Shown: positions 13,360-48,364 of the stretch, one piece after another
How positions within the stretch are numbered: the stretch's first letter is position 1
Layout of the letters: each line of letters begins with the position of its first letter
NCBI RefSeq assembly: GCF_027359355.1
Contig: NZ_CP114777.1
Coordinates: forward strand, 1,364,001-1,428,000
Origin: Prochlorococcus marinus str. MIT 1214
Lineage (GTDB): Bacteria > Cyanobacteriota > Cyanobacteriia > PCC-6307 > Cyanobiaceae
DNA length: 64,000 bases
Direction of reading: 5' to 3'
The notes under the pieces: generated by a model
Database searches by the model: none
Seen by the model: the letters and a program-made list of their open reading frames with translations, nothing else
What the model was told of the DNA's origin: nothing
Program-made: the position numbers and the translations under genes

Positions 13360-15522
13360 TCATGAAATCAAGTCTCGGTATCTATCAGTTTGAGTAAGGA
13401 TTTTTATGGCAGGTCTCAGCATATTTTTGTAGTTCTTCCATCCACCAATTGATTTTGAATTGATTTGAAAACGCACTTGAACATTACTTGCTGTTGAAAC
13501 TGAGCGTGGATTTAGATGAGGTGATAGATATGAATCGTTCCATTCCCAACCTAACCAAGAGACCAAAGATTTAATTTCTTTACTAGGATTGCTCACTAAT
13601 AAATCATAATTTAAGTCGTATATTTTTGATCTAAACCTATTCTTATAATTAGTCATTAATTCTTCTTGATCTAAATAAACTCTTGCGCAATCAATTAGGG
13701 ATGAGGAATATTCATTCCCTTCAGAAAAATGTGTTCGATAAATTGAAAGAATATTATCTAAAGGATTTCTATAGCAGTGAATAATTTTGGCGTTCGGGAT
13801 TTGACAGGAGATAATACCTGCATATTGATAGTTATATAACCATTTATTTGTTGTGATCTTTAATTCACTTTTAAGACTATTTACTTTGTTCCAATATAAA
13901 ACGGCGAGAGGTGATTCTTGCTCATTCCTTTTTCGCTTTAGAAATGATTGCTCAAGTATGTTAATCTCCCCCAAATCATTAATATTAGGATTTATACTAA
14001 GAATAGATTCTACTAATGTGCTTCCACTTCTGGGCATCCCCACAATAAAAATATTCTCAGGCAAGTTTGTCTGTTCGATTTTCGTGATTTCATTTTTATT
14101 TGATTCAATAAGTAATGCATTTGATTTATTGATTAAAGTATCAGAGTTAGATGGATTAATATTAAGTTTAAGGTTATTTGCTAATTGAAGATATTTAGAA
14201 CTGTCTTCATATTTTTTTTCATTATGAAGAAAATTTGCTCTTGCAAAATAAATATTAACTTTGTCTGCCTCTGTTTTATTATTTAAGATGGTTTTAGAAA
14301 AAATTTGTTTTTTATATTCCTTTGTATTCTTAGATTTTTTGAATTTTGATAAAGTATAATAGACTATTGTTAAATTAGAGTTGATTTCTATTGCTTTATT
14401 TAGAGATAGTTCTGCTTCTTTTAATTTACCAAGATTAATCAATATGACTCCCCGATTGGAATGTGCCTCTGCGAAATCAGGTTTCAGTTCAATTGCTTTG
14501 CGAGTGGATATTTCTGCTTCTTGTAATTTGTCAATATCTTTCAATATGAGTCCTAGATTATAATGCGCCATTGCAAAATCAGGATTAATTTCAATTGCTT
14601 TGCGATATGAAAACTCTGCTTCTTGTAATTTGCCAAGATTTTTTAATGTGTTTCCTAGATTTAAATGCGCATTTGCGTAATCAGGATTAATTTCAATTGC
14701 TTTGCGATATGAAAACTCTGCTTCTTCTAACTTGCCAAGATCGTTCAATATATTTCCCAGATTGTAATTCGCCATTGAGTAATCAGGTTTAATTTCAATT
14801 GCCTTGCGGTAAGACATCTCTGCTTCTTGTAATTTGCCTATATCTTTCAATATGTTTCCCAGATTGGAATACGCCTCTGCGTAATCAGGTTTAATTTCAA
14901 TTGCTTTGCGAGTGGATATTTCTGCTTCTTGTAATTTGTCAATATCTTTCAATATGAGTCCTAGATTGTAATGTGCCATTGAGTAATCAGGTTTAAGTTC
15001 AATTGCTTTGCGAGTGGATATTTCTGCTTCTTGTAATTTGCCAATATCTTTCAATATGAGTCCTAGATTGGAATGCGCCATTGCGAAGTCAGGATTAAGT
15101 TCAATTGCTTTGCGAGTGGATATTTCTGCTTCTTGTAATTTGCCAATATCTTTCAATATGAGTCCTAGATTGTAATTCGCCATTGAGTAATCAGGTTTGA
15201 TTTCAATTGCTTTACGGTATGATATTTCTGCTTCTTGTAATTTACCAAGATCTCTCAATATTGTTCCATAATTAGAAAAAACTCTGTGATCATTAAAACC
15301 TTGATTTATACAATATTGATAAAGTTTTGCTGCTTCTGAAATGTTTCCTTGTGAATGTAAGTTAAATGCTTGATTAATTATTTGGTCTTTAGAAGGTGTA
15401 GAAGAAGTATTCGTATTAACAGTAATATTTTCTTTGATTTCTTCTAAGTCATATGGAACTGGGTATGTTTTTACTTCCGTGACTTTTTTCTTTCCTTTTT
15501 CTTCTTGATTAGAACTATTCAT
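13360..15522 (-). CDS. TPR-repeat protein with C-terminal sulfotransferase domain
   Basis: The protein has 720 residues. A leader (KTYPVPYDLEEIKENI, about 19-34) is followed by a helical pair and about ten TPR units (about 50-385). A helical linker comes next, and then a sulfotransferase domain: the PAPS 5'-phosphosulfate loop FIVGMPRSGSTLVES near 490-503 and the 3'-phosphate-binding region CYRNPLDNILSIYR near 584. The conserved end (LSPHLNPRSVSTASN ... GGWKNY) is shared with three other genes here. The enzyme should move sulfate from PAPS to an unknown acceptor in the cytoplasm or at the membrane. The first 1.0 kb, plus about 48 bp upstream, is identical to the neighbouring gene at 15997, but the 3' halves differ completely. 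A decayed methyltransferase tail follows the stop. Confidence 0.88.
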   Translation of the reverse strand: MNSSNQEEKGKKKVTEVKTYPVPYDLEEIKENITVNTNTSSTPSKDQIINQAFNLHSQGNISEAAKLYQYCINQGFNDHRVFSNYGTILRDLGKLQEAEISYRKAIEIKPDYSMANYNLGLILKDIGKLQEAEISTRKAIELNPDFAMAHSNLGLILKDIGKLQEAEISTRKAIELKPDYSMAHYNLGLILKDIDKLQEAEISTRKAIEIKPDYAEAYSNLGNILKDIGKLQEAEMSYRKAIEIKPDYSMANYNLGNILNDLGKLEEAEFSYRKAIEINPDYANAHLNLGNTLKNLGKLQEAEFSYRKAIEINPDFAMAHYNLGLILKDIDKLQEAEISTRKAIELKPDFAEAHSNRGVILINLGKLKEAELSLNKAIEINSNLTIVYYTLSKFKKSKNTKEYKKQIFSKTILNNKTEADKVNIYFARANFLHNEKKYEDSSKYLQLANNLKLNINPSNSDTLINKSNALLIESNKNEITKIEQTNLPENIFIVGMPRSGSTLVESILSINPNINDLGEINILEQSFLKRKRNEQESPLAVLYWNKVNSLKSELKITTNKWLYNYQYAGIISCQIPNAKIIHCYRNPLDNILSIYRTHFSEGNEYSSSLIDCARVYLDQEELMTNYKNRFRSKIYDLNYDLLVSNPSKEIKSLVSWLGWEWNDSYLSPHLNPRSVSTASNVQVRFQINSKSIGGWKNYKNMLRPAIKILTQTDRYRDLIS

Positions 15523-15570
15523 CTTTTCTTATCTTTTCTATCTTTTGCTTTTTCCGATTTTACTACTAAA
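14565..15570 (-). repeat. 1,006-bp segment apparently identical to 16947-17952
   Basis: Constant offset of 2,382 bp with no difference found by eye. It covers the upstream region, the leader and about 320 codons of the TPR array. It ends inside a TPR unit at 14565, after which the two genes diverge abruptly. Confidence 0.85.
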
Positions 15571-15839
15571 GAAAAGCGAATACTTGAAATTAATTAGTTT
15601 CCTAAAGTTACTTCAAGATCTAATCTTCCCAGTTCAAATCTAGGTCCTAGCAAAACTATTAAGCACCTTACAGGTGCTTTTTTAATACCAAAACGAAATA
15701 TAGTTGGGTTTTCAGATTTTTTAGTGCATAAAGATACAAATTGAGTATCCATAACAGCGGTTTGGAAATGTCATGGAATATTGATCTATCAGATTCATGA
15801 ATTATTACTGCCAAGATGTTCTCTGAATATTCGTAATAT
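15523..15839 (-). other. Spacer between two TPR genes
   Basis: No gene is seen. It holds the conserved upstream element at 15557-15570 and a perfect short hairpin AAGCACC TTACA GGTGCTT followed by six T (15660-15685, terminator on the plus strand). The remaining sequence shows nothing I can identify. Confidence 0.5.
15557..15570 (-). promoter_or_regulatory. Conserved upstream element of TPR genes (TAGTAGTAAAAT)
   Basis: On the minus strand TTAGTAGTAAAAT lies about 36 nt upstream of the ATG at 15522. The same or a close form precedes the genes starting at 17904, 24458, 29055, 34476, 52297 and 56862; a weaker variant (TAAGAGTAAGAT) precedes 40928 and 54528, and TAATAGTATAAT precedes 38567 and 47855. 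The position and A/T pattern suit a -10 box. No clear -35 is seen. Confidence 0.5.
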
Positions 15840-15996
15840 TCAGCTATTCATATTAGAAATCCAGAATTGATAAATACCTATGAACGTCGTGGGATATTGC
15901 TTTTCAAATTTTGTTCGTTTTTGTAAGTTTGTTTGCTTTTATCTTCTGGGAAATGCTTCCTATAAAGAGGGATTAAATTTTTGTATTCGAGGTTCG
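15840..15996 (-). pseudogene. Decayed C-terminal tail of a class I methyltransferase, copy 2 (longest)
   Basis: After the stop of the upstream gene the minus strand reads IQKFNPSL, stop, EAFPRR, stop, KQTNLQKRTKFEKQYPTTF, then IGIYQFWISNMNS and a stop. It aligns with the last 45-50 residues of the gene at 50117-52297 (IQQPIKSLYTKNFPQDTKQ ...). Two in-frame stops show that it is not translated. Confidence 0.82.
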
Positions 15997-17904
15997 TTAG
16001 GAATGAAATTCTCTGTTCAAATTCTGGAAAAATTTTGGTCCTTTTATTTGCTCATTAGTTATTTTAATGACACTTTCATCTCTTATTTTTTGCGCATATG
16101 CGACCCAGTTTCTCATTATTAGAAAGTTATTTAAATTAAACCCTTCTATACTTTTGCTGCTTTTACCCCAATTTTTACTACCTTGATCTATTTCTTTTTC
16201 GATAGTTCTCCAGTTTTCATTGTAATTCATTGGTTGATCACCAGACGTACTTATCTCTTTATATTGCGGGAATACAAGTGGATATTCAGAACATCCTCTT
16301 TTGACCTTAGAAATTAAATCAATTCTAATATTATTTTGAATATTAATATTTAACTTTTTAGATATTTTTAATGCTTCAGTTAGACTTAAACAATATATAA
16401 GTCCTTTATAAAATCCTGAGATATTAGGTCGGAGTTCGATAATAGATTTTCTAGTATTATTATTTTTAAGTTTTAACTGATTAAAAACTAAAAATAGTTT
16501 CATCAATTCAATTATTGAAACTACTTCAACTTGAACCTTATAACATCCAAAGCAGAATTCAGGAATTACTTTATGTTGATTGAATATTAGTTTATGCCTC
16601 TTACAATTTAAATTTACTTCATTCCTCCTATATATTTGTGATAAATTTGTTTCTAAGTTTAAATTATATTTTTTGTAAATTTTAAGTCCATCTTTATAAA
16701 TTCTTATCGCTTCATTGTCAGTTATTAGAATATTCTCTTTATGAAAAAGATTTACTTCTTTGAATTCCTCATTTATCATGTATAATAAGTTTGATTCAAT
16801 CTTTTTTGGTTTGTATATAGTTAGTAAATTTATTAAATGATTCTTAATAGATTCATTTTGAGGATTTAAGTCCAATGCTTTATTTAGAGATTTTTCTGCT
16901 TCTTCTAATTTTTTATATTCAACTAATATACCTCCCAGATTGGAATGCGCCATTGCAAAATCAGGATTAATTTCAATTGCTTTGCGATATGAAAACTCTG
17001 CTTCTTGTAATTTGCCAAGATTTTTTAATGTGTTTCCTAGATTTAAATGCGCATTTGCGTAATCAGGATTAATTTCAATTGCTTTGCGATATGAAAACTC
17101 TGCTTCTTCTAACTTGCCAAGATCGTTCAATATATTTCCCAGATTGTAATTCGCCATTGAGTAATCAGGTTTAATTTCAATTGCCTTGCGGTAAGACATC
17201 TCTGCTTCTTGTAATTTGCCTATATCTTTCAATATGTTTCCCAGATTGGAATACGCCTCTGCGTAATCAGGTTTAATTTCAATTGCTTTGCGAGTGGATA
17301 TTTCTGCTTCTTGTAATTTGTCAATATCTTTCAATATGAGTCCTAGATTGTAATGTGCCATTGAGTAATCAGGTTTAAGTTCAATTGCTTTGCGAGTGGA
17401 TATTTCTGCTTCTTGTAATTTGCCAATATCTTTCAATATGAGTCCTAGATTGGAATGCGCCATTGCGAAGTCAGGATTAAGTTCAATTGCTTTGCGAGTG
17501 GATATTTCTGCTTCTTGTAATTTGCCAATATCTTTCAATATGAGTCCTAGATTGTAATTCGCCATTGAGTAATCAGGTTTGATTTCAATTGCTTTACGGT
17601 ATGATATTTCTGCTTCTTGTAATTTACCAAGATCTCTCAATATTGTTCCATAATTAGAAAAAACTCTGTGATCATTAAAACCTTGATTTATACAATATTG
17701 ATAAAGTTTTGCTGCTTCTGAAATGTTTCCTTGTGAATGTAAGTTAAATGCTTGATTAATTATTTGGTCTTTAGAAGGTGTAGAAGAAGTATTCGTATTA
17801 ACAGTAATATTTTCTTTGATTTCTTCTAAGTCATATGGAACTGGGTATGTTTTTACTTCCGTGACTTTTTTCTTTCCTTTTTCTTCTTGATTAGAACTAT
17901 TCAT
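15997..17904 (-). CDS. TPR-repeat protein with an unknown C-terminal domain
   Basis: The protein has 635 residues. The leader and about eight TPR units (to about residue 355) are shared exactly with the gene at 13360. The last 270 residues match nothing I recognise. They contain RHKLIFNQHKVIPEFCFGCYKVQVE around 438-462 (two close Cys plus one upstream, CKRH, that might bind a metal) and an acidic/aromatic end (PMNYNENWRTIEKEIDQGS). The region is not a sulfotransferase, methyltransferase or glycosyltransferase by motif. It is the only copy of this module here. A long decayed methyltransferase tail lies just past the stop, suggesting that this module replaced a methyltransferase one. Confidence 0.78.
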   Translation of the reverse strand: MNSSNQEEKGKKKVTEVKTYPVPYDLEEIKENITVNTNTSSTPSKDQIINQAFNLHSQGNISEAAKLYQYCINQGFNDHRVFSNYGTILRDLGKLQEAEISYRKAIEIKPDYSMANYNLGLILKDIGKLQEAEISTRKAIELNPDFAMAHSNLGLILKDIGKLQEAEISTRKAIELKPDYSMAHYNLGLILKDIDKLQEAEISTRKAIEIKPDYAEAYSNLGNILKDIGKLQEAEMSYRKAIEIKPDYSMANYNLGNILNDLGKLEEAEFSYRKAIEINPDYANAHLNLGNTLKNLGKLQEAEFSYRKAIEINPDFAMAHSNLGGILVEYKKLEEAEKSLNKALDLNPQNESIKNHLINLLTIYKPKKIESNLLYMINEEFKEVNLFHKENILITDNEAIRIYKDGLKIYKKYNLNLETNLSQIYRRNEVNLNCKRHKLIFNQHKVIPEFCFGCYKVQVEVVSIIELMKLFLVFNQLKLKNNNTRKSIIELRPNISGFYKGLIYCLSLTEALKISKKLNINIQNNIRIDLISKVKRGCSEYPLVFPQYKEISTSGDQPMNYNENWRTIEKEIDQGSKNWGKSSKSIEGFNLNNFLIMRNWVAYAQKIRDESVIKITNEQIKGPKFFQNLNREFHS

Positions 17905-17952
17905 CTTTTCTTATCTTTTCTATCTTTTGCTTTTTCCGATTTTACTACTAAT
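16947..17952 (-). repeat. 1,006-bp segment apparently identical to 14565-15570
   Basis: Second copy of the duplicated 5' half of a TPR gene, with the identity ending in the same TPR unit. Identity at third codon positions implies a very recent duplication or gene conversion. Confidence 0.85.
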
Positions 17953-18441
17953 TTCAATCTATATGAATTCTCTTTGAAATTATTTGGGAACTGATAGAGC
18001 GAGAATAAAAAAATAGTTCTGTATATTATTTCTCTACTTAGAAGAGCAGGTGACAAGGTCAATGAAGCATTGCTGGTGACTAAAATTGAGTGTATTACTC
18101 TACAACTTTTCTGCAAAAGTATCATTCAGTGTGTTTTTCTTCGTGATCAATTGGTATGAGTAGGTTTTACGTGGGTTTTACGCGCTATGTGTAAAGATGA
18201 AATCCGTTGCTATAACAGGGGTTTAGGGGTGTTCTTTTGTGGTGGACTATTGAGTGGGAATAGTTTAGGGCAGTAAAACCAGTCCACCACTCAAAAACTC
18301 ACTTCCACGTGTCACCTTGTCACCTTCTCTGTAAAGACATCGTAGATAGTTCATTTTCTCTACACTCGTTGTTTCAATGTCTCTGATTTAGTTGTTAAGA
18401 ATCTATGAACGACTTCTCTACGCAATGAGAAATTCTTAGTA
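17905..18441 (+). repeat. Spacer with long direct repeat (copy 2 of the 11.2/18.1 kb pair)
   Basis: No gene is seen. It carries the TPR upstream element (17939-17951), TTTTACGTGGGTTTTACGCG at 18165-18184, the guaA-end core at 18246-18263, CAGTCCACCACTCAAAAACTC, and a CACGTGTCACCTTGTCACC block near 18305. About 18110-18420 aligns with 11220-11600 with few changes. Confidence 0.7.
18246..18263 (+). repeat. guaA-end core copy 3
   Basis: ACTATTGAGTGGGAATAG, same form as copy 2. It lies 179 bp beyond the 3' end of the minus-strand gene at 18442. Confidence 0.65.
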
Positions 18442-22292: not shown

Positions 22293-24458
22293 TTAGGAGG
22301 CGATGTCTTCGTACTTATCAGTTTGAGTCAGGATTTCGATAGAAGGTTCAAGCATCTCTCTGTAGTTCTTCCATCCGCCAATTGATTTTGAATTGATGGG
22401 AGAACGAACTTGAATATTGCTTGCTGTTGAAACTGAGCGTGGATTGAGATGAGGTGACAGATATGTATCGTTCCACTTCCACCCTAACCAAGAGATCAAA
22501 GATTTAATTTCTTTATGAGGATTACTGACTAATGACTCATAATTTAAGTCATATATTTTTGATCTAAATCTATTCTTATATTCTGTCATTGTTTCTTCTT
22601 GATCTAGATAAACTCTTGCGCAATCAACTAAGGAAGAGGAATATCCATTTCCTCTTGCAGCAAAATGTGCTCTGTACATTGAAAGAATATTATCTAATGG
22701 ATTTCTATAAGAGTGAATAATTTTTGCATTCGTTATGTACTTCGCAATGATCCCTGTGTATTGATAGTTATATAACCATTTGTTAGTTATAATTTTTAGT
22801 TTATCATTTTTATTATTTATTTTCTTCCAATATAATTGAGAGAGGTTGGATACTTCATCTGCTTTTTGCCACTCTAAAAATGATTCCTCGAGGATATTAA
22901 TTTCTCCTAAGTCATTAACATTAGGATTCATACTAAGTATAGATTCAACCAGTGTGGAACCACTTCTCGGCATCCCTACAATAAAAATACTCTGAGGATA
23001 ATTTGCTTGTTCTTTTTCATTAATTTCTTTTTTATCAGATTCAATAAGTAATATTTTGGACTTATTGATTAAAGTATTAGGTTTAGATGGGTTAAGATCA
23101 AGTTTAAGGTTATTTGCTAATTGAAGGAATTTAGAACTTTCTTCGTACTTTTTTTCCTTATGTAGAATATTTGCTCTTGCGAAGTAAACATCAACCTTAT
23201 CTATTGGCAATTTGTTATTTAAGATGTTCTTAGAGAAGAGTTGATCCTTCCATATTTTACTTGTATTGGAGTATTGAAGAGTCGATAGCGAAAAATATGC
23301 TTTTGCGAAATCAGGATTAATTTTAATTGCTTTGCGGTATGAGATTTCTGCTTCTTTTAATTTGCCTAAATCACTCAATATGCCTCCCAGGTTTGAATGC
23401 GCTTTTGCGTAATCAGGTTTAATTTCAATTGCTTTGCGGTATGACAATTCTGCTTGTTCACTTTTACCAAGATCATTCAATATATTTCCCAGGTTGTAAT
23501 GCGCGTCTGCATAATCAGGTTTAATTTCAATTGCTTTGCGGTATGAGAATTCTGCTTGTTCACTTTTACCAAGATCATTCAATATATTTCCCAGGTTGTA
23601 ATGCGCGTCTGCATAATCAGGTTTAATTTCAATTGCTTTGCGGTATGACAATTCTGCTTGTTCACTTTTACCAAGATCATTCAATATATTTCCCAGGTTG
23701 TAATGCGCGTCTGCATAATCAGGTTTAATTTCAATTGCTTTGCGGTATGACAATTCTGCTTGGTCACTTTTACCAAGATCATTCAATATATTTCCAAGAT
23801 TGTAATGCGCGTTTGCATAATCAGGTTTAATTTCAATTGCTTTGCGGTATGAGAATTCTGCTTGGTCACTTTTACCAAGATCATTCAATATATTTCCCAG
23901 GTTGTAATGCGCTTCTGCCAAATCAGGATTTATTTCAATTGCTTTGCGAGTAGATAATTCTGCAGCTTGTAAATTGCCAAGATCTTTCAATATGTTTCCC
24001 AGATTGGAATGCGCGTTTGCATAATCAGGTTTAATTTCAATTGCTTTGCGGTATGACAATTCTGCTTGGTCACTTTTACCAAGATCATTCAATATATTTC
24101 CAAGATTGGAATGAGCATCAGCGAAATCAGGTTTAATTTCAATTGCTTTCAGAGTAGATAATTTTGCTTCTTCTAATTTGCCAAGACCTTGTAAAATCTC
24201 TCCATAATTTGAAAAAACCCTGTGATCTTTAAAACCTTGATTTATAAAACCTTGATAATATTTTGCTGCCTCTTGAATATTTCCTTTTAGATGAAACTGA
24301 ATTGCTTGATTGATTAATTGTTCTTTAGAAGTTTTAGAAGGAGGATTTGTATTAATAGTAAGATTTCGTTTAATTTCGCCTAAAGCAAATGGAACAGGGA
24401 ATGTTTTTACTTCAGTAATTTTCTTCTTTTCTTCTCCTTCTTGACTAGAGCTATCCAT
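22293..24458 (-). CDS. TPR-repeat protein with C-terminal sulfotransferase domain
   Basis: The protein has 721 residues. The leader TFPVPFALGEIKRNL precedes about ten TPR units, several of which (ILNDLGKSDQAELSYRKAIE / IKPDYADAHYNLGN) are nearly identical tandem copies of 102 bp, a sign of recent expansion. The sulfotransferase loop FIVGMPRSGSTLVES is near residue 495, and the second PAPS region SYRNPLDNILSMYR near 585. The last 60 residues are almost the same as in the gene at 13360. The SGRAHFAARG region has a two-residue insertion relative to other copies. A decayed methyltransferase tail follows the stop. Confidence 0.88.
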   Translation of the reverse strand: MDSSSQEGEEKKKITEVKTFPVPFALGEIKRNLTINTNPPSKTSKEQLINQAIQFHLKGNIQEAAKYYQGFINQGFKDHRVFSNYGEILQGLGKLEEAKLSTLKAIEIKPDFADAHSNLGNILNDLGKSDQAELSYRKAIEIKPDYANAHSNLGNILKDLGNLQAAELSTRKAIEINPDLAEAHYNLGNILNDLGKSDQAEFSYRKAIEIKPDYANAHYNLGNILNDLGKSDQAELSYRKAIEIKPDYADAHYNLGNILNDLGKSEQAELSYRKAIEIKPDYADAHYNLGNILNDLGKSEQAEFSYRKAIEIKPDYADAHYNLGNILNDLGKSEQAELSYRKAIEIKPDYAKAHSNLGGILSDLGKLKEAEISYRKAIKINPDFAKAYFSLSTLQYSNTSKIWKDQLFSKNILNNKLPIDKVDVYFARANILHKEKKYEESSKFLQLANNLKLDLNPSKPNTLINKSKILLIESDKKEINEKEQANYPQSIFIVGMPRSGSTLVESILSMNPNVNDLGEINILEESFLEWQKADEVSNLSQLYWKKINNKNDKLKIITNKWLYNYQYTGIIAKYITNAKIIHSYRNPLDNILSMYRAHFAARGNGYSSSLVDCARVYLDQEETMTEYKNRFRSKIYDLNYESLVSNPHKEIKSLISWLGWKWNDTYLSPHLNPRSVSTASNIQVRSPINSKSIGGWKNYREMLEPSIEILTQTDKYEDIAS

Positions 24459-24975
24459 CTTCTCTTATCTTTTCTCTCTTTTAGTTTTTCAGATCTTACT
24501 GCTAATCTGTTCCCTTATTAATTCTTGCTAAAATCATTTACTACTTATAGAGAAAGATTAATAAATATTTTCAATGAACTTTCTACGATTATTGAGAGCA
24601 TCAACTCACAGACTAGAACTAATTCTGTACATTTCTTAACTTTATCAGTTAGTCATGGGTTTGTCACGATCAAATAATCCTTGAGAATCCAGTTATATCT
24701 TTATTTTTTTTCGGTAGTGACTATTGAGTGGGAGTAGTGCTAACGTCTACTTTCTGGTGATAATTTGATTTATATGGTTTCATGAGAGAAGAATAATGCC
24801 GATATAACTAGGGTTTTGATGGGTTACTTTTACATAGGTTTCACGTGGCGTCTTGTATGTGTCTCTGTGGAGAAATCGTAGAAAGTTGATTTCCTCTACA
24901 CCTATATAAAATTAAAAGCAAGAATATATTTTTATGATTTCTCTATAAAATCAAATATTTTTTCTTTGGAAGTAG
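24459..24975 (+). repeat. Island spacer, second full type A block
   Basis: No gene is seen. The TPR upstream element is at 24493-24506. From 24720 to about 24905 it aligns with 9635-9830 next to guaA: core, CTACTTTC-N2-GTGATAA, GATATAACTAGGGTTTTGATGGGT, a CACGTGG arm and the GGAGAAATCGTAGAAAG hairpin. This is the closest copy of the guaA-flanking sequence in the island. Confidence 0.72.
24720..24737 (+). repeat. guaA-end core copy 5 (perfect)
   Basis: ACTATTGAGTGGGAGTAG is an exact 18-bp match to the guaA 3' end, with a further 150 bp of similar right flank. It lies 347 bp beyond the 3' end of the gene at 25084. Confidence 0.75.
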
Positions 24976-25064
24976 TTAACTGCCCTTGTTGAAAACCCAG
25001 AACTGATACATACCTGCGAAGATCGTAGGATGTTGTATTCAAACTTTGCCCAGTTTTGTAAGTT
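24976..25064 (-). pseudogene. Decayed methyltransferase tail, copy 4
   Basis: NLQNWAKFEY, a frameshift, then HPTIFAGMYQFWVFNKGS and a stop. It starts 20 bp past the stop of the TylF-type gene. Confidence 0.82.
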
Positions 25065-25083
25065 TTTTGTTATTGCCTTTTAG

Positions 25084-26676
25084 TTAAATACCTAACAATT
25101 TCAACGCAACTTGTCTTGTGTTGTAAGAAATAGCAAGCACTTCATAACTTAAATTATTTTCAGAGCAAAATTCATGGAGTGCTTTATATTCGTGCCTTTC
25201 CCAATTTTGATACATAATAAATTCATCAAATATTAAAATTGTATGCTCATCAATAATAGGCTTTGAATTAGTTAAAGCACAGATAGTTGAAGAATATAGG
25301 TCGGCATCAAAATTTATAATTGATGCTTTTGGTTGAGGTTTGGTAAAGAATTTTGGCAATGTTTCTTCGAAATTACCTGATATAAATGTTCCACCATTAA
25401 TTTGCGGAATGATTCCTTCTGTCGAAAATGTGCCTTTTTTCGCGGTGTTCCATTCTTCAGGTAAGCCTTCGAAAGTATCAAATCCATAACCTTTTTTGAA
25501 AGTATTAATTAGATATTGAAATGACGCTCCACGCCAAACACCAAATTCATAGAAAGGGCGTTCCTTTTTGCTTTCCTTAACCATATTGTCAAATAAAGTC
25601 CATTTATTAAAAAATAATTTCGGCAAATTTGGTAAAGTAGAAACCCATTTTAAGGAAGATATAGAGGGATCATTTTTATAAGTAGATTTTATTAACTTGT
25701 GAAAAAACTTTTGATCACCTTGATGGAATTGCAGTGCGCTGAAAGTGAATTTTGCTTTGAAGTTATTTTGATCAATTTCCAGGCATCGGAGTATCTGTCT
25801 TTCTGCTTCTTGAATATCATTTGAAAAGCTATGCAAATTCCAAGCAGCCTCAAAAAAATCTGGTTTTAGCTCAATAGCTTTTCTTAGTGATGATTCTGCC
25901 TCTTGAAGATTTCCAAAATTACTTAATACACTTGCCAAATTGAAGTTGGCCTCATAGGAATGAGGATTCAGTTCAATAACTTTTCTAAGGGGCTCAACTG
26001 CTTCTTGATATTTCCCAAGTTTATTTAATATGCTGCCGAGATTTTTATATGCTTCTGCGAAGTCAGGTTTAAGTTCAATTGCTTTGAGTATTGATATTTT
26101 TGCTTCTTTTAATTTGTTAAGTTGACTTAAAGTGATTCCAAGATTGTAATGAGCATTTGCGAAGTCAGGTTTGATTTCAATTGCTTTGCGGTGTGATGAC
26201 TCTGCTTCTTCTAACTTGCCAAGATCGTTCAATATATTTCCAAGATTGTAATGAGCATTTGCGAAGTCAGGTTTGATTTCAATTGCTTTGCGGTGTGATG
26301 ACTCTGCTTCTTCTAACTTGCCAAGATCGTTCAATATATTTCCAAGATTGGAATGCGCTATTACATAATCAGGTTTAATTTGAATTGCTTTGCGCTGTAA
26401 TAATTCTGCTTCTTCTAAATTGCCAATCTTTTTTAAGATTATCCCATAATTAGCAAACACTATTGGATCCTCAAACCCTTGATCCATAAAATATTGATAA
26501 TGTTTTGTCGCTTCTTCGATATTACCTTCTGAATGAAATTTAAATGCTTTGTGAATTAATTGTTCTTTAGAAGGTTTGGAAAAAGTATTAGTAGAAATAG
26601 AAACACTCTCTTTAATTTTTCCTAAAACCAATGGATCTGAAAATGTTTGTTCTTCTTCTTTGCTATACCCCTCCAT
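25084..26676 (-). CDS. TPR-repeat protein with TylF-like methyltransferase domain
   Basis: The protein has 530 residues. The leader is degenerate (LVLGKIKESVSISTNTFSK). About seven TPR units run to about residue 290. The C-terminal domain (about 340-530) is of the TylF/macrocin O-methyltransferase type: RPFYEFGVWRGASFQYLI (SAM loop, about 378-395), GYGFDTFEGLPEEW, and the metal-site region ASIINFDADLYSSTICAL near 455. The enzyme probably O-methylates a sugar or other hydroxyl group. The short upstream region lacks the conserved TAGTAGTAAAAT element, having instead an AT-rich run, so regulation may differ. A decayed methyltransferase tail lies past the stop. Confidence 0.85.
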   Translation of the reverse strand: MEGYSKEEEQTFSDPLVLGKIKESVSISTNTFSKPSKEQLIHKAFKFHSEGNIEEATKHYQYFMDQGFEDPIVFANYGIILKKIGNLEEAELLQRKAIQIKPDYVIAHSNLGNILNDLGKLEEAESSHRKAIEIKPDFANAHYNLGNILNDLGKLEEAESSHRKAIEIKPDFANAHYNLGITLSQLNKLKEAKISILKAIELKPDFAEAYKNLGSILNKLGKYQEAVEPLRKVIELNPHSYEANFNLASVLSNFGNLQEAESSLRKAIELKPDFFEAAWNLHSFSNDIQEAERQILRCLEIDQNNFKAKFTFSALQFHQGDQKFFHKLIKSTYKNDPSISSLKWVSTLPNLPKLFFNKWTLFDNMVKESKKERPFYEFGVWRGASFQYLINTFKKGYGFDTFEGLPEEWNTAKKGTFSTEGIIPQINGGTFISGNFEETLPKFFTKPQPKASIINFDADLYSSTICALTNSKPIIDEHTILIFDEFIMYQNWERHEYKALHEFCSENNLSYEVLAISYNTRQVALKLLGI

Positions 26677-26910
26677 TATTGTCTTTTCAATTATACAATT
26701 ATTATATCGTATATTTTGTATATATATGATATATATAAAAGATTAGCTTTTCATATGTTTTTTAATTTATTAGAAAAAGTAATTCTTTTGTGATTTCTCT
26801 ATATAGAGAACATAGGACAAGGGGACAAAATGATAATTCATATGCGTTGTATGAAGAGTTAGCAGGGCGTTTGCGTGTTGATCCTTTGCTGAACCTCCAT
26901 ACACCTACAA
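26677..26910 (+). other. Spacer with REHRTRGQ-type coding-like remnant
   Basis: An AT-rich alternating run (ATATATATGATATATATAA near 26718) is followed by plus-strand sequence reading SLYREHRTRGQN, DNSYALYEELAGRLRVDPLL and NLHTPTNA, stop (26796-26918). A related stretch is found at 34590-34690 (SPRREHRTRGQN, then broken) and weakly at 45478 and 49792. No start codon is present. It may be the end of a lost gene. Confidence 0.4.
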
Positions 26911-26918
26911 ACGCATAG

Positions 26919-27360
26919 ATCACGATAAAAAAACCTATTGAAGATCGTATTTGGCAAATAAGAGTTTCAATTCCTAAGTCAAAAGGTATTAGAAAATCCC
27001 TAAAAACTTCTGATAAAGAACTTGCTCTTGAACGCGCAGAAGAATTGATTCTTGAAGTCAAAGTAACGATGAAGCAAGGTGGTAGTGCTCTACTATTTCC
27101 AGTTGAAAAACTTGTCCGACTATTTTTAGAAAATAAATCAGGCAAGGTAAGAGGATCTTGGGAAGGAAAGGTTGATGCTGGTAAGAAAAGTCTTACTCAA
27201 GAACGATTTGGACTGATTGAAGGCAAGTTGAGGAATTATGTGATTCCTTTTTTAGGAGCGAAAACTGATGTTAGAAACATTCCATTTTCTAAGTGGGAGA
27301 CTTGTGCAAGTTGGAGGAAGGCGAATAACACAAGATCTGAAATGGGAACCCCTAAAGCGA
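26919..27360 (+). pseudogene. Truncated tyrosine recombinase (integrase) N-terminal fragment
   Basis: The plus strand reads KKPIEDRIWQIRVSIPKSKG, IRKSLKTSDKELALERAEEL, then KQGGSALLFPVEKLVRLFL, TQERFGLIEGKLRNYVIPFL and SKWETCASWRKANNTRSEMG TPKAI. This is the pattern of the arm-binding and SAM-like N-terminal domains of phage-type integrases. The catalytic R...H-x-x-R...Y domain is missing: coding similarity stops at about 27358, where the shared spacer sequence TTTTTCGTAGAGAAG begins. An in-frame TAG at 26916-26918 precedes the fragment, and no ATG start is available. It is inactive. It is the only recombinase-related sequence I see in the island. Confidence 0.75.
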
Positions 27361-27428
27361 TTTTTCGTAGAGAAGTTGTAGAAACCTATTTTGCTTTGAA
27401 TAATTAAAGATTTATTCTGGGGAAGTTG

Positions 27429-27537
27429 TCAATTTTCCTTTTTAGAAACCCAGAACTGATACATACCTGCGAAGGTCGTCGGATGTTTTTCATCAAACTT
27501 TTCCCAGTTTTGTAAGTTCGTTTGTGTCTTGTCTTTT
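27429..27537 (-). pseudogene. Methyltransferase tail, copy 5 (frame still open)
   Basis: KDKTQTNLQNWEKFDEKHPT then TFAGMYQFWVSKKEN and a stop: 35 codons with no lesion and clear similarity to the end of the gene at 50117. It has no start codon and lies 4 bp past the stop of the TylF-type gene. Confidence 0.85.
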
Positions 27538-27540
27538 TAG

Positions 27541-29055
27541 TTAAACTCCTATTAATTTCACAGCAACTTGCTTTGTGAAATATGAAATTGCCAAAACTTC
27601 ATAAGTTAAATTATTATTAGAGCAAAATTCATTGAGTGCTTTATATTCATCCTTCTCCCAATTTTTATTCATAATAAATTCATCAAATATTAAAATTGTA
27701 TGCTCATCAATGATAGGTTTTGAATAATTTAAAGCACAGATAGTAGAGGAATATAGATCAGCATCAAAATTGATAATTGATGCCATAGGTCTAGGTTTGG
27801 AATAAAAAGTTGGAAGGGTATCTTCAAATTTACCTGCTATAAATGTTCCGCCATCAATTTCAGGAATGATCCCGTCTGCTGAATATTTACCTTGCTTCTC
27901 GTGATGCCAATCTTCTGGTAATCCTTCAAAAGTATCAAATCCATAACCTTTTTTGAAAGTATTAATTAGATACTTAAAGGATTCACCTCGCCAAACACCA
28001 AACTCATAGAAAGGGCGATCTTTTTTGCTTTTATTAATCATACTGTCAAATAATGCCCATCTATGGAAAAATAATTCAGGTAAATTCGGCAAAGTAGAAA
28101 CCCATTTAATAGAACGTGTTTCAGGAAGATCTTTATGAGTTGATTTTATGAGATTATCAAATAATGATTGATCACCTTGATGTAATTTCAGAGCACTTTT
28201 AGTCAAGATTGCATTTAAGAAATTTTTGTCTATTTTCAAGCATTGGTTAATCCTTTCTTCTGCTTCCTTAATAGTATTTGCTAATCCAGATAAATTCCAA
28301 TAAGCAAGAGTGAAATTAGGATTGAGTTCAATTGCTTTGCGGTATGACAATTCTGCTTCTTTTAATTGACCAGGACCTCTCAATACATTTCCTAGATTGG
28401 AATGTGCTTCTGCGTAATCAGGTTTAATTTCAATTGCTTTGCGGTATGACAATTCTGCTTCTTTTAATTGACCAAGATCTCTCAATATGATTCCCAGATT
28501 GGAATGTGCTTCTGCGTAATCAGGTTTAATTTCAATTGCTTTGCGGTATGACAATTCTGCTTCTTTTAATTGACCAAGACCTCTCAATACATTTCCTAGA
28601 TTGGAATGTGCTTCTGCGTAATCAGGTTTAATTTCAATTGCTTTGCGGTATGACAATTCTGCTTCTTTTAATTGACCAAGATCTCTCAATATGATTCCCA
28701 GATTGGAATGTGCTTTTGCGTAATCAGGTTTAATTTCAATTGCTTTGCGAAACCACTTTTCTGCTTCTTTTAATTTACCAAGACCTTGTGAAATTGCTCC
28801 AAAATTAGAAAAAATTCTGTGATCTTTAAAACCTTGATTAATGAAATATTGATAAAGTTTGGCTGCTTCTGAAATGTTCCCTTGTGAATGAAATTTGAAT
28901 GCTTGATTAATTATTTCTTCTTTAGAAGGTTTAGAAGGAGTGTCCGTAGTAATGGTGATGTTTTCTTTGATTTCTCCTAAAGCAAATGGAACGGAGAATG
29001 TTTTTACTTCAGTGACTTTCTTCTTTCCTTCACCTTTTTGACTAGAACTATACAT
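27541..29055 (-). CDS. TPR-repeat protein with TylF-like methyltransferase domain
   Basis: The protein has 504 residues with the full leader (VKTFSVPFALGEIKENITI) and about seven TPR units to about residue 255. Four central units are near-identical 102-bp tandem copies in an alternating A-B-A-B order (IILRDLGQLKEAELSYRKAI, then VLRGLGQLKEAELSYRKAI), so they grew by duplication of a two-unit block. The TylF-type domain has FYEFGVWRGESFKYL near 350-365, YGFDTFEGLPEDW and INFDADLYSSTICAL near 430. The promoter-like TAGTAGTAAAAT element is at 29089-29102. An open methyltransferase tail follows the stop. Confidence 0.87.
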   Translation of the reverse strand: MYSSSQKGEGKKKVTEVKTFSVPFALGEIKENITITTDTPSKPSKEEIINQAFKFHSQGNISEAAKLYQYFINQGFKDHRIFSNFGAISQGLGKLKEAEKWFRKAIEIKPDYAKAHSNLGIILRDLGQLKEAELSYRKAIEIKPDYAEAHSNLGNVLRGLGQLKEAELSYRKAIEIKPDYAEAHSNLGIILRDLGQLKEAELSYRKAIEIKPDYAEAHSNLGNVLRGPGQLKEAELSYRKAIELNPNFTLAYWNLSGLANTIKEAEERINQCLKIDKNFLNAILTKSALKLHQGDQSLFDNLIKSTHKDLPETRSIKWVSTLPNLPELFFHRWALFDSMINKSKKDRPFYEFGVWRGESFKYLINTFKKGYGFDTFEGLPEDWHHEKQGKYSADGIIPEIDGGTFIAGKFEDTLPTFYSKPRPMASIINFDADLYSSTICALNYSKPIIDEHTILIFDEFIMNKNWEKDEYKALNEFCSNNNLTYEVLAISYFTKQVAVKLIGV

Positions 29056-29583
29056 TTTTTCTTATCTTTTATTCTTTTGGTTCTCGCTATTTTACTACTA
29101 ATTGGAATCCTTATTAATTCTTTCTCAAATCATTGTTGTTTCATTTTGGGTGGCATAAAGTAGTATTTTCTTAGAATAATTCCCTACTATATCTCTAAGT
29201 TAAAGTCGTCTGTGAGGAGTTTTTAGTTCATTATCGTCTCTTATTAGTTTCACCAAAGTTTCACTTAGAAGTTATTTATTATCAAATACTGTGACTTCTT
29301 CTGTTATAATTGATTATCCTGAACTTAGTGTTTGTAGAGTTGCTATTGAGTCGGAATAAACGTCTACAAAAAAGTAGCTATAGACTGAATACTTGAGTTT
29401 CACATGAGTATCACATGGAATATTGCTTATGTACCATCAAGGGTTTTGAGGTCAGTAGTTTCACAAGTCCCCTTTTTACCTTTTCCATGGAGAAATCGTA
29501 GAAAGATGGCTTTCTCTACAAAATTAAATCTTTTTATGTTCTTTAATTAGTTAGTTACTCATTTCTAAGGAGAAAGAGATTAG
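29056..29583 (+). repeat. Island spacer with core and arm-like repeats
   Basis: No gene is seen. It contains the upstream element (29089-29102), the core variant at 29342-29359, TTTCACATGAGTATCACATG at 29398-29417, and CCATGGAGAAATCGTAGAAAGATGG ... TTTCTCTAC (29484-29518). No methyltransferase tail is present here. Confidence 0.6.
29342..29359 (+). repeat. guaA-end core copy 6
   Basis: GCTATTGAGTCGGAATAA, followed by CGTCTAC. It lies 225 bp beyond the 3' end of the gene at 29584. Confidence 0.5.
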
Positions 29584-31437
29584 CTAACTATCACTTCTTT
29601 TCCCAAATAAGATCGTGACATTAATTCGACGATTTTCATATCCTTCTTTGAATTCATAATTATCAGTTTCATGAAATAAATTTGAATTGAATACAACAGC
29701 ACGGTTCTCCTTATAAGGAATAACTTTTGTATTCCCTTTGCTTTTTTTTAGTTCTTCTTTAATTCTCTTTTCATCATTATTATAAGTTTGAAAATCCCAT
29801 TCTTTTGGAGCTTCTACGTCGTAGACGATTAACCCACCAGAATCAGAATTCAAATTGGCCTCTTTAGGCGTGATCCAAAAATTGACATTTATTGCCGCGA
29901 AATCTGCATGAACATTGATCCCTTTGAGAGATGAATTTTTATTTTTAGCACGGCTATCGTACTTGTATGCCCATATTTGCCTGATTGGATGATTTCTAAA
30001 AATTTTGGGGAACTTTTTTCTTAATTCATTTGCTATTTGAATAATTAAGGGATTAGCTAAACCTTCTTTCAAATAAGCTCCAAGATAACCACCTTTTTTA
30101 ACATCAAACCAAATTGTACTTCCGAGTAAAAAATTACGAAGTGATTCCAGGGCTGTAGGACTTAATAAATCATCAATGTAAGTTAATCCGAACTCATGAT
30201 CGAAATAATCATTTGTAATTTTCGCGACATCTAATGAATTACTTATTGCTTCCTTTTTTAATTTAGGTGCTTCAATTTGATGTATTAATCGATTATAGCT
30301 ACCTTTGATAAGACTTTGATGATGATTGTCTAAAAAAATTGATTGAGTTTCAGACGGCCAATCAATTTCAGCGGCAACTTTTTTGTAAACCATAGCAAGA
30401 GCTGTAAATTTTTCACTCTCGTAACCTTTCGATACTAAATATTCATATTGTTCAATATCATGATCTATTTTGGCCTTACTAATTTGTGAGAGTCTTGAGT
30501 TAATAGATTCTTGCTTTTTTTGTCCTCTTAGTAACTCAGCACTTTCTAAAAAATATTTTAAGGATGCGTCATAGTCACCTTTTTCGAGAAGTATCAAACC
30601 TAAAATTTCATACGCTTTGGCTAAATCAGGATTAAGTTCAATAGCTTTGCGAGTTGAAAATTCTGCGTCTTGTAATTTCCCAAGATCTTTCAATATCATT
30701 CCTAGATTGGAATGCGCCGAAGCGAATTCAGGATTAAGTTCAATAGCTTTGCGAGTCGAAAATTCTGCGTCTTGTAATTTCCCAAGATCTTTTAAAATTG
30801 CTCCAAGATTGAAATGAGCCTGAAATAAATCAGGTTTGAGTTCAATTGTTGTGCGTAAAGGTTGTTCTGATTCTTGAAGTTTCTTTTGTCCGATGAGAAT
30901 GTTGGCAAGAAGGAAATGAGAGTTGAAGAGACTAGGATTAAGTTCAATTGCTTTGCGTATAGATACTTCGGCTTCTTTTACCTTTCGAAATTGAATATAA
31001 CCATTAGCAAGGTTTATCCAGGCAGGGGCTAAGTGTGGATCAGATTTAGTTGCTTTGCTTAATAAAGATAATGCTTGTATTTTATTGTTTGTATTGAGTT
31101 CAATACTCCCAAGATTTGTCAATGCTGGAGCATAAGAACTATTAATCTTAAGTGCTTTTTGATAATACTTTTTAGCATTATTAATATCCCCAATCATTTG
31201 ATAGGTATTACCTAGGTCTTTAATTGATTCATAATCATCTGGTTTAATATTGAGAGCTTTATTAAAATTTAACCGAGCATCATCTATCTTTCTAGTGGCT
31301 AAAAAAGATTTGGCTAATAATTTTAAAGCTTCTATTGAGTTTCTATCAGTAGATAATATTTGATTACAAGTATCAATAGTTTCTTGATATTTGTTTTGCT
31401 TAAAGAGAGATTGAGCGATTTCTAGATATGCTTCCAA
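29584..31437 (-). CDS. TPR-repeat protein with 2OG-Fe(II) oxygenase-like domain, divergent N-terminus
   Basis: The protein has 617 residues. It lacks the shared leader: the start MEAYLEIAQSLFKQNKYQET goes directly into TPR units, and the first five units are more diverse in sequence than in neighbouring genes. The C-terminal part (about 400-617) has INVHADFAAINVNFWI near residue 510 (HxD iron ligands), SGGLIVYDVEAPKEW, and NLFHETDNYEF with NRRINVTILFG near 590 (distal His and the 2-oxoglutarate Arg). This fits the prolyl-4-hydroxylase/2OG-Fe(II) fold. The substrate is unknown. The last 380 residues closely match the gene at 36741. The upstream TAGTAGTAAAAT element is not seen. Confidence 0.82.
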   Translation of the reverse strand: MEAYLEIAQSLFKQNKYQETIDTCNQILSTDRNSIEALKLLAKSFLATRKIDDARLNFNKALNIKPDDYESIKDLGNTYQMIGDINNAKKYYQKALKINSSYAPALTNLGSIELNTNNKIQALSLLSKATKSDPHLAPAWINLANGYIQFRKVKEAEVSIRKAIELNPSLFNSHFLLANILIGQKKLQESEQPLRTTIELKPDLFQAHFNLGAILKDLGKLQDAEFSTRKAIELNPEFASAHSNLGMILKDLGKLQDAEFSTRKAIELNPDLAKAYEILGLILLEKGDYDASLKYFLESAELLRGQKKQESINSRLSQISKAKIDHDIEQYEYLVSKGYESEKFTALAMVYKKVAAEIDWPSETQSIFLDNHHQSLIKGSYNRLIHQIEAPKLKKEAISNSLDVAKITNDYFDHEFGLTYIDDLLSPTALESLRNFLLGSTIWFDVKKGGYLGAYLKEGLANPLIIQIANELRKKFPKIFRNHPIRQIWAYKYDSRAKNKNSSLKGINVHADFAAINVNFWITPKEANLNSDSGGLIVYDVEAPKEWDFQTYNNDEKRIKEELKKSKGNTKVIPYKENRAVVFNSNLFHETDNYEFKEGYENRRINVTILFGKRSDS

Positions 31438-31709
31438 GTCTAAAAAAATAAGTATGAGAATATAACTCTAGTTTAAGCTATCTAAGCTAATTTAATTATG
31501 TTAAATAGTTCTTAATATGAAATTTGTATTGCTTTTACTGTTTGTCTAACTAGAGAAGTCGGTTAAGGAGGATAGAAGCACCAGATGTAAATAGGATGTA
31601 ATAAGATTTACGCAACCTCTAAATCAATATCTAAAACTACAAGATATTGTTTCTGATATGTCTCCTACATGTTTCCCACGAGAATTGAGGAAACATTACT
31701 TGAGGGAGG
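31438..31709 (+). other. Spacer with RELR-type coding-like remnant
   Basis: No complete gene. Plus-strand reading near 31640-31720 gives IVSDMSPTCFPRELRKHYLR, EGLI and a stop. Related tails occur at 40983, 45602, 48090, 49907 and 54725, where they end 14-28 nt before a guaA-end core. Here the core is missing and the tail runs into the 620-bp duplicated block. Confidence 0.45.
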
Positions 31710-32330
31710 GACTGATTTAACTCATTAAATTGCATTAAGAAAGGGACCCTGCTGCTTCAGCGACCTTGAGTCCCTCTCTTCAGTTACAGAACGAATTTTG
31801 GTAAGGAGTTGTTCTGCTTTTCCTTTTCTAATCAATTTCACAAAGGTTCTGCATCCGAAAAAATTCCTAATTAGATATCGTCCTCACTGTTTCCGAATGG
31901 GTTGTATCTGATATCAAAAATCAAAACCACTGCTGTGCTTAAAAGCAGTAATCCAAAAACAACTTGGGGAGATGGAAATATCATTCGACCACTCTAGAAA
32001 AGGCACAAAAAAACCGCCCAGTTCTGTTTGGACGGTTTCTTTGTGAGATCAGGCGCAAGTGTTTCCTTGTTTCCACTGCGGAGGATCTCAACTCCTCACA
32101 AAATCAACTTATTAGACGCAACTAGGGGTCTCAAGTGTTAGCAGATGAGTTTCTCAACTGTCACATGTGCCAATTCTATAAAATCAACCATTAAAAAAAC
32201 ACCCTACTTACTCGAAGTCGAGTGCCTTTTTACAACAGAACTATTGTGTGAGGAGTTGTTCTGTTATTTCATTTCTACTCCTGTCTGCACCTTTTGTCAC
32301 TAGGGAAACACAAACTGATGAGAACCTGCA
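31710..32330 (+). repeat. 620-bp duplicated non-coding block, copy 2
   Basis: It matches 20343-20963 almost base for base, with the same three hairpins (GGGAC/GTCCC at 31743-31774; ACCGCC/GGCGGT-like stem near 32014-32039; AGCACCC/GAGTGCC near 32197-32228). The region near 32108-32150 differs completely from copy 1. Decayed partial copies are also visible at 41270-41400 and 58745-59010. Confidence 0.75.
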
Positions 32331-32450
32331 ACGTAGGCATTAAAACAAAGGATCTAAGAATAAAAAGTGAGGACTTTTGACGAGTTCTATCAATCATTAG
32401 ATCCTGAATCAAATAAACTCTCTTAGTAGATTGAAGAAAAATAGAAGATT

Positions 32451-32813
32451 TTGGATGAAACTTGGTTAAAAGAACTCAATCAAAGAAATCTTGAGTTGGA
32501 AGGAGAAAATAGTTCGAAATGGGATTGTGTAACCGTTTCTGTTTCGTCCTCAGTTTTAAACAAATTAAGTCAGGCAGAACAAGGGAAATTTGAAATTACT
32601 GAATTCAAAAGAGCAACGAATGAAATTGAGCATTGGGCAAAAGTAGAAGAAATATGCGATTTCTTTGGAGTTGAAGATCCCGGTCTAGCAGGAGATGTCT
32701 ATGTTAGAAAGTTCAAAAACTTGACTGTAGATGAGGAGAATAGATGGATGGATTTAAAAGATATCAATGACGAGATACCTGAGGGTTTTGGCGTGAAAAT
32801 CGATCGTAGTTAA
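32451..32813 (+). CDS. Unknown acidic protein (120 aa)
   Basis: The frame opens with TTG at 32451; an in-frame TAG at 32442 excludes a longer start and no in-frame ATG exists nearby, so TTG is likely. The product MDETWLKELNQRNLELEG... is acidic and helical (AEQGKFEITEFKRATNEIEH, VEEICDFFGVEDPGLAGDVY) and has no domain I recognise. It stands alone between the duplicated block and the next spacer, on the strand opposite to the TPR genes. Confidence 0.55.
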   Translation: MDETWLKELNQRNLELEGENSSKWDCVTVSVSSSVLNKLSQAEQGKFEITEFKRATNEIEHWAKVEEICDFFGVEDPGLAGDVYVRKFKNLTVDEENRWMDLKDINDEIPEGFGVKIDRS

Positions 32814-33140
32814 GGAAAGGTAAATAATTGTTTGCTCCCTTGCTAATGCAACGGTTCCACGGGAGTTCCAAGTGGTAAAAAGGGAGCAAATCATTGTCCA
32901 ACACTCAATAATTTGATCAAGTGCTATTGAGTGGGAGCCGTGAAAACGCCTACTTTTTAGTGATAATTTATTCTTCGTATTTCACACGGATTTTATTTGC
33001 CAATCAATATTAGTGTTGACAAGCCTTTGAAGGAGTAGGTTTCATGTACATTTCACAAAAACTCTTTTTCATATCTCTAAAAAAAATTGTAGAAAAAGGC
33101 TATCTCCATAACACAAAATATTTTTATGCTTTTCAATGAG
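32814..33140 (+). repeat. Island spacer with core and arm-like repeats
   Basis: No gene is seen. TTCCACGGGAGTTCCAAGTG lies at 32855-32874 left of the core. CACTCAATAATTTGATCAAGTG just before the core at 32923 makes an inverted copy of its TTGAGTG. A degraded GTAGAAAAAGG ... hairpin is near 33070-33105. Confidence 0.55.
32923..32940 (+). repeat. guaA-end core copy 7
   Basis: GCTATTGAGTGGGAGCCG, followed by CGCCTACTTTTTAGTGATAA as at guaA. It lies 310 bp beyond the 3' end of the gene at 33250. Confidence 0.6.
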
Positions 33141-33229
33141 TCAGAATATCGTTTTACATATCCAGAACTAATACATTCCTTTGAAGGTATTTGGATGCTT
33201 CTCGCAAACCTTGCCAACTTTTGTACGTT
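33141..33229 (-). pseudogene. Decayed methyltransferase tail, copy 6
   Basis: NVQKLARF, a one-base deletion, EKHPNTFKGMY, TAG (Gln codon changed), FWICKTIF, stop. It starts 20 bp past the stop of the TylF-type gene. Confidence 0.8.
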
Positions 33230-33249
33230 TATTTGTTGTTGTCTTTTAG

Positions 33250-34476: not shown

Positions 34477-34763
34477 TTGTTGTTTCCCTTTAGAATTTCA
34501 ACTATTTTACTCCTAACTCTAACGCTTGTTCACATTGTTTGAAGCCATGTCTAAACTTGTAAATAGAGACTAAAAAGTAGATCTTTATATTATTTCTCCA
34601 CGAAGAGAACATAGGACAAGGGGACAAAATTACCGATTATGAAGAGTTAGAAAGCATATGCGTGTTGATTCTCAATATACCTTTAGTTAATTGTCCTTAT
34701 ATAAGAGAACTTTGCTTATTTTATGCGGTGTTTATTTCTAACTATCTAATTTTTGATGATGAT

Positions 34764-36722: not shown

Positions 36723-36740
36723 TTATACTTTCGATACACA

Positions 36741-38567: not shown

Positions 38568-38771
38568 TTGGACCTTTACGTCTTTTCTGTTTCTTAGATT
38601 ATACTATTAGCTTAGAGAACTTAAAAAAGATGGATAAAATTATTTCTTTTCTGTTTTCTAATTTATTCAAATGTTACTAATAACTACTAAAAATTGCTGA
38701 GGTTTACTTGTTTCAATGTACAAATCTGTACCATCGCCTACATTTGATTGATAGGGGGGTTAAAGTGGTTG

Positions 38772-40928: not shown

Positions 40929-41424
40929 TGTTTATTTTCTTTTGAATTTTAAACATCTTACTCTTAAATCTAGTCAGTTTATGCCTTCCCCATAAGTTTT
41001 GCATGAGAATTGTTGGGGAAATTGGTTGTATTAGTGAAAGGGATTACAAGGAATATTTGGGCTGGTAACTATTGAGTGGGAGTGATAATGACTACTAAGA
41101 GGTAGTTATAGATTGAAAGTTGTAGTTCCACGTGCCCTCTTCTCTATTGAGAAATCATAGAAAGTGTTTTTCCTACAATTGTAGTTAAATTTCTAAGATT
41201 TAGTCACTAAGAATTGATTGACGAATGCCCTACAAATTATTTTTTCCTGAGGATATAAAAGATACCAAAAAGGCGGCCCGCTCTAAAGCAGGTCTTTTTG
41301 ATGATTAGTTGCAAATGTGTCTTTGTCTCTACTGTGGAGGATCTCACCTCCTCTTAAACCAAACCTACTCAACATGAGAATAAACTCCTTCTTAACCAAC
41401 AACGCAAAAATTTTTGTTGATGAT
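40929..41424 (+). repeat. Spacer with RELR-type remnant, core and degraded hairpin block
   Basis: No gene is seen. The plus strand near 40983-41040 reads YAFPISFA, stop, ELLGKLVVL, a frameshifted form of the RELR tail; GATTACAAGGAATATTTGGG follows, then the core at 41068-41085. A decayed part of the 620-bp block (TGTGGAGGATCTCACCTCCT near 41332) is next, then a truncated copy of the small gene at 19282 (MRINSFLTNNAKIFVD, 41373-41420). Confidence 0.55.
41068..41085 (+). repeat. guaA-end core copy 8
   Basis: ACTATTGAGTGGGAGTGA differs from the guaA end by two bases; TAATGACTACTAA follows. It lies 340 bp beyond the 3' end of the gene at 41425. Confidence 0.62.
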
Positions 41425-42996: not shown

Positions 42997-43209
42997 GCAT
43001 TGTAATACTAATGCTGAAATTATTTAATTTTTATATTTAGCTAAATAAAGTAGTAGTTGACTTGAATGATTGCCTATGACATCTCTAAGTTAATTTCCTT
43101 TTGAGAAGTTTAACTTTCTCGTATTGATTTCATATGAGATGCCAACATTACCAAATTCTATGATTTATATAGATATAATTAGAGATCTTGATCTTAGTAT
43201 ATTTGGGGT
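42997..43209 (-). other. Spacer with no recognised gene
   Basis: AT-rich sequence with no conserved upstream element. The end (from 43199) belongs to the block shared with 54782 onward. Confidence 0.4.
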
Positions 43210-48347: not shown

Positions 48348-48364
48348 TACGACTAAATAATAAA

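Follow-up and report, generated by a model that had tools for sequence, protein, structure and literature searches.

The window analysed in this work is the 64,000-bp stretch 1364001-1428000 of the genome of Prochlorococcus marinus str. MIT 1214 (G000), which is assembled as one contig of 1,934,849 bp. Near its start lie two adjacent genes, A and B, both on the minus strand, which have their 5′ parts in common and differ in their 3′ parts. The features of the locus, in window coordinates, are as follows:

13360..15522 (-), gene A, 720 aa: a leader, nine TPR units and a sulfotransferase module; probable donor.
13360..14373 (-), sulfotransferase module of A, 337 aa, starting after the last profile-called TPR.
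14562..15569 (-), tract in A, 1008 bp, equal to 16944-17951, made up of 961 nt of coding sequence and the 47 bp upstream.
15570..15996 (-), spacer between B and A, with a hairpin at 15661-15679.
15997..17904 (-), gene B, 635 aa: leader and TPRs as in A, followed by a last TPR of its own and module B; probable recipient.
15997..16857 (-), module B, 286 aa, without a Pfam match; Cys85, Cys102, Cys105, Cys156 and Cys189 are invariant in 17 homologues.
16944..17951 (-), tract in B, 1008 bp.
17952..18250 (-), upstream of B, matching the upstreams of module-B genes in two relatives (G007 and G020) at 80-84%.
22293..56862 (-), remaining array: 15 further TPR genes with sulfotransferase, TylF-type methyltransferase, GT9-like and other modules.
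43264..56862 (-), genes 43264, 52621 and 54847: the reciprocal case, in which 3′ module tracts are nearly identical and the leaders have diverged.

The original prediction had placed a 1,006-bp identity at 14565-15570 and 16947-17952, and the pairwise alignment proposed along with it upheld the identity. The offset of 2,382 between the copies was given correctly, while the last base of each interval (15570/17952) proved to be a mismatch, the only one, and the maximal exact match is in fact 1008 bp long (14562-15569 = 16944-17951, zero differences). It runs from 47 bp before the ATGs through the first 961 nt of each CDS and, as the coordinates and the TPR calls confirm, breaks off inside a TPR unit, after which A continues with about two more TPR units and the sulfotransferase module, and B with one TPR unit and module B. 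Apart from these two, the closest copy of the tract in the genome is 83% identical; at that level some 170 differences per 1008 bp would be expected, where none were found, and the identity of A and B is far beyond chance. A separate 60-bp exact repeat, part of a 119-bp match at 93%, lies at 11476-11535, near the start of the array, and at 18307-18366, upstream of B.

An exact identity of 1 kb exceeds the length of a short read, and it could in principle be an assembly artefact, in which the two scaffolds truly differ and reads of one were used for both. However, the genome is a single contig with a completeness rating of 100%, relatives of the flanks exist elsewhere for both copies, and like tracts are found in four other genomes. 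Several of these are 97-99.9% identical, which speaks against read merging, since merging would give 100%. We therefore consider an artefact of this kind most improbable.

As the original prediction held, the 3′ halves are unlike. A carries a predicted sulfotransferase module, its C-terminus matching Pfam Sulfotransfer_3 (PF13469; E 1.2e-26, 94.7 bits against a curated cut-off of 27). The complete B protein matches only TPR or TPR-like models in Pfam, and module B alone has no match there, nor in a PDB sequence search at E 1 or better; its AlphaFold2 model (mean pLDDT 77) has no Foldseek match at E 0.001 or better in the library of solved structures (PDB). The best VIA-align superposition, on eIF4E chains (Z 5.9, rmsd 5.8 over 128 residues), was too weak to place the fold. 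Module B is kept across phyla, together with TPRs, and the named relatives of B in the genome collection come from 18 loci: 12 in Prochlorococcus single cells, two each in SUP05 and Pelagibacteraceae, and one each in a Magnetococcales and a Rhodospirillales bin. No relative of either module B or the scaffold was found on a viral contig, the scaffold scan being a single-protein query that reaches close relatives only, and transport of either part by phages was rejected within that scope. Gene B ends 7-12 residues before the eight relatives compared (window 15997-16020), and its tail may be truncated.

The 34-residue repeats exceed the TPR cut-off, and NCBIfam returns TPR families, mostly under their cut-offs, with no specific name. 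The N-terminal parts of A and B match TPR and TPR-like Pfam models only, with no secretion or trafficking domain among them, and the 474-bp spacer between the two genes holds no ORF of at least 100 aa, the only size considered. In Pfam, A and B do not show the N-terminal secretion part of a polymorphic toxin or two-partner secretion system.

In regard to the origin of the pair, the original prediction had left duplication and conversion side by side, and it is the flanks that decide for the latter. Tandem duplication or unequal crossing over could have made A and B from one gene, with subsequent replacement of one module; the two genes are indeed adjacent and co-oriented with common 5′ ends, and several other 5′ tracts likewise connect neighbours. 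However, the identity ends 47 bp upstream, and no clear similarity was found between the spacer (15570-15996) and the upstream of B, while unequal crossing over would carry the spacer along. Two unlike flanks around an identical core thus favour conversion. In addition, 5′ tracts comparable to this one link genes 22-404 kb apart, one such pair being on opposite strands.

The module-B gene was further compared part by part in eight relatives. In the module, four of them reach 89-91% nucleotide identity and the remaining four 81-83%, while the TPRs before the last one are 78-82% identical in all eight, against 0.755 for unlike family members. Past the first 48 bp, the upstream of B is 84% identical to that of the B locus in G020 and 80% to that in G007, with 66-73% in the other six and a background of 0.686 for this measure. 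These alignments indicate that the module and upstream of B belong to an old B locus, whose scaffold now matches its relatives only at family level. In several relatives the module-B gene already stands near a sulfotransferase gene, there with a different scaffold: over the first 600 nt, the two are 71-80% identical in six other genomes, and G006 holds the only near-identical scaffold pair among the seven relatives measured. On these sequence comparisons, plain duplication of A and B is disfavoured, and we regard it as very unlikely.

Taken together, the A/B identity lies far above the family background, its ends fall in homologous sequence or at unlike flanks, and the B locus was in place beforehand and kept its own flanks. 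It is highly probable that the pair records an ectopic gene conversion with two ends, as part of a recurrent recombination across the whole family. The direction was probably from A to B, a reading that comes from TPR number and from flank similarity of modest strength. Gene B has 8 TPRs here, its four closest relatives 4-5 and the other four 5-8, and the upstream of A resembles that of a sulfotransferase gene with 8 TPRs in G002 and that of a scaffold-only gene at 1720863, whose leader is the closest to that of A and B (0.904). The class of the upstream is only weakly informative about the donor, as genes with B-class upstreams have leaders that are no worse: eight with a B-like upstream average 0.814 against A/B, and the sole gene passing the A-like cut 0.775.

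Both genes belong to a large family. At least 44 TPR ORFs, a lower bound because they were counted within genome stretches around matches, occupy 80.6 kb, or at least 4.16% (~4.2%) of the 1.93-Mb genome, and 17 of the 44 lie in the window, every one encoded on the minus strand. For 40 of the 44, the C-terminal parts sort into twelve groups. The largest, with 11 genes, is GT9-like, although its Pfam GT9 score of 19 bits is below the cut-off of 22; it is followed by a GT41-like group (six genes, the single member scanned matching PF13844), the sulfotransferases (five), a group without Pfam match that gives us the impression of an oxygenase (four) and the TylF-type methyltransferases (four). Smaller groups are a second one without Pfam match (two genes), two groups of 2OG oxygenases (three genes altogether), radical SAM with SPASM (two), and single genes for FkbM methyltransferase, Methyltransf_31 and, in this genome, module B. 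A PF13640 match among the modules, at 20.9 bits, is below its curated cut-off of 27, and the five PF13469 genes of the genome are all TPR genes. Three genes are scaffolds with hardly any module (18-51 residues), at 1720863-1721855 (L019 8863-9855), 1091065-1091952 (L015) and 815126-816025 (L013), and could possibly be remnants or scaffold donors.

Sequences outside the coding regions are partly common to the family as well. An AGTAGTA-like element is found mostly 31-50 bp before the start codons, with one of three variants present in 43 of 122 upstreams against 9 when each was shuffled once. A sigma-70 scan gave fewer promoter-like sites than shuffled sequences (13 against 25.3). Of the 3′ flanks, 83 of 122 match another at E 1e-5, and about 150-170 bp past the stop are common to genes with unlike modules, for example at 13190-13359. 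Two intergenic blocks (20343-20956 and 31710-32323), each with a Cyano-1 small RNA (RF01701), agree at 97.9% over 607 bp, an instance of similar recent copying beyond the genes.

Across 123 TPR genes of six genomes, with tracts defined by at least 250 bp and at least 97% identity, 23 were found within the stretches fetched around matches (one genome, G003, contributing one gene). All are within-genome; the lack of tracts between genomes is partly expected, as each genome represents another species. Nine cover 5′ scaffolds and 14 cover modules or 3′ ends. Among the nine 5′ pairs, the modules are non-homologous in six and weakly similar in two (45% and 27% aa), and in the last one partner is almost module-less. 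The 14 3′ tracts come from twelve gene pairs with leader identities of 0.63-0.81 and, in one case, 0.90. The distance between partners ranges from 1.8 to 930 kb, and they may be on either strand. The 5′ tracts favour neighbours, as six of nine pairs are within 4 kb compared with 77 of 1847 overall (P 3e-7), while the 3′ tracts show no such preference (1 of 12, P 0.40); in one GT41-like pair (L020 8372-10912 and L013 11498-13663), 930 kb apart, 1279 bp of the module are 99.6% identical and the leaders only 0.63. In G006, a module-B gene (485319-487013) and the sulfotransferase gene next to it (487145-489223) share 752 bp at 99.9%. Since their scaffold differs from that of MIT 1214 (0.66 in the TPR part), this pair of like composition records a separate, independent event.

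The tract, both of its ends, the older separate flanks and the recurrence are direct observations, and a recombination of the RecA type could account for them. According to such a model, A and B would be two old, distinct members of a large TPR-scaffolded enzyme family of low-light Prochlorococcus, and one recent non-reciprocal homologous recombination event would have copied about 1 kb, most likely from A onto B, from just 5′ of the start codon into the TPR array. Of the two ends, one lies within the conserved 5′ flank, the other among the 102-bp TPR repeats, and with the ends so placed neither gene lost its module, its outer flanks or its reading frame. Such copying probably acts on the whole family in both ways, with 5′ tracts, mostly between neighbours, altering the scaffold, and 3′ tracts copying the module. 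The view of the pair as a snapshot of shuffling, put forward in the original prediction, thus suits the wider family; in A and B themselves a scaffold was copied and no module moved, both having stayed in place.

In 74 of 110 TPR genes from MIT 1214 and its relatives, those with a leader and a module of more than 200 aa, leader similarity is unrelated to module class: leader identity is 0.769 among like modules (308 pairs) and 0.772 among unlike ones (2393 pairs), a difference at least as large as the observed one arising in 489 of 1000 permutations. Of all leader pairs in the 74 genes, the eight closest each join unlike modules within one genome. An orthologue comparison kept 57 of 74 reciprocal best hits, in which both genes have a leader, at least three TPRs and a module of more than 200 aa. 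In the 26 pairs whose modules are reciprocal best hits at 80% or more, mean identity is 0.841 in modules, 0.785 in leaders and 0.791 in TPRs, over backgrounds of 0.757 (leader) and 0.755 (TPR); the number of TPRs agrees in only two, and the best leader is that of the orthologue in four, with 1.7 expected. Scaffold and module are thus nearly uncoupled, with a slight link persisting in orthologues.

Concerted evolution of all scaffolds in each genome was not supported, because mean leader identity within genomes (0.761, 1226 pairs; 0.749 in MIT 1214 itself) is barely above that between genomes (0.756, 4063 pairs), even though values of 0.90 or above occur in 16 of the 1226 within-genome pairs and in 1 of the 4063 between-genome pairs. 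Conversion thus does not keep scaffolds uniform genome-wide, and a strictly shared docking surface becomes less plausible. It is also possible, with a likelihood only a little short of even, that the exchange is a purely neutral recombination of repeat-rich DNA in which scaffold sharing plays no role, an explanation compatible with conversion. TPR repeats and conserved flanks provide homology throughout the family, and the scarcely raised within-genome leader mean and the unlike TPR number in 24 of 26 close module pairs fit it as well. The recipient B does have an intact, in-frame module, but selection against broken genes would alone suffice for this, so the point carries little weight.

Several known systems show partial resemblance. 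In meningococcal tpsA/tpsC, 3′ domains are exchanged by homologous recombination, with gene conversion among the authors' keywords, and as in the TPR family one part of the gene is conserved and the other exchanged; there, as reported, shorter cassettes recombine with one secreted growth-inhibiting protein (PMC3848433). The TPR family differs in having full genes, many unrelated enzyme modules and exchange of both 5′ and 3′ parts, and A and B show neither a secretion part in Pfam nor an immunity gene among ORFs of at least 100 aa in their spacer.

O-GlcNAc transferase (GT41) joins an N-terminal TPR array to a C-terminal modifying enzyme. The family described here has the same order of parts, and six of its genes are GT41-like, but it combines one scaffold type with about a dozen module classes in one genome.

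TPR proteins have been described as enriched in low-light Prochlorococcus, with a proposed role in photosystem II (PMC11357015), and as one of the frequent annotations of unique or strain-specific genes in Cyanorak (PMC7779031). These papers concern the same organism group and domain, and their available portions do not describe modules, mosaicism or conversion. A literature search for Prochlorococcus, tetratricopeptide and sulfotransferase, covering open-access journal papers, found no paper, nor did one for tetratricopeptide, sulfotransferase and Pelagibacter. Among the matches listed for Prochlorococcus and tetratricopeptide, none concerned a modular TPR-enzyme family by its title or the start of its abstract, and among those listed in related searches no title treated one.

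The module repertoire, with sulfation, glycosylation, hydroxylation, methylation and radical SAM chemistry, suggests modification of surface glycans or proteins. The TPR half may serve to bring modules that sulfate, glycosylate, hydroxylate or methylate to a partner or substrate that they have in common, on which they would dock. A further-reaching proposal, which we put forward tentatively and consider rather unlikely, is a combinatorial enzyme system in which the TPR docking half is copied between neighbours and catalytic modules between distant genes, so that new enzymes would be directed to one shared surface glycan or carrier protein. With tracts present in several related genomes, the exchange of scaffolds and modules can be measured directly, and such exchange may explain why orthologue clustering splits these genes into strain-specific ones. 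If the scaffold is the docking part, the family would represent a large, so far unexplored repertoire of modification enzymes in a phototroph that ranks among the most abundant in the ocean, and the combinatorial system, if true, would amount to a mix-and-match modification kit in a free-living cell that is among the most streamlined.
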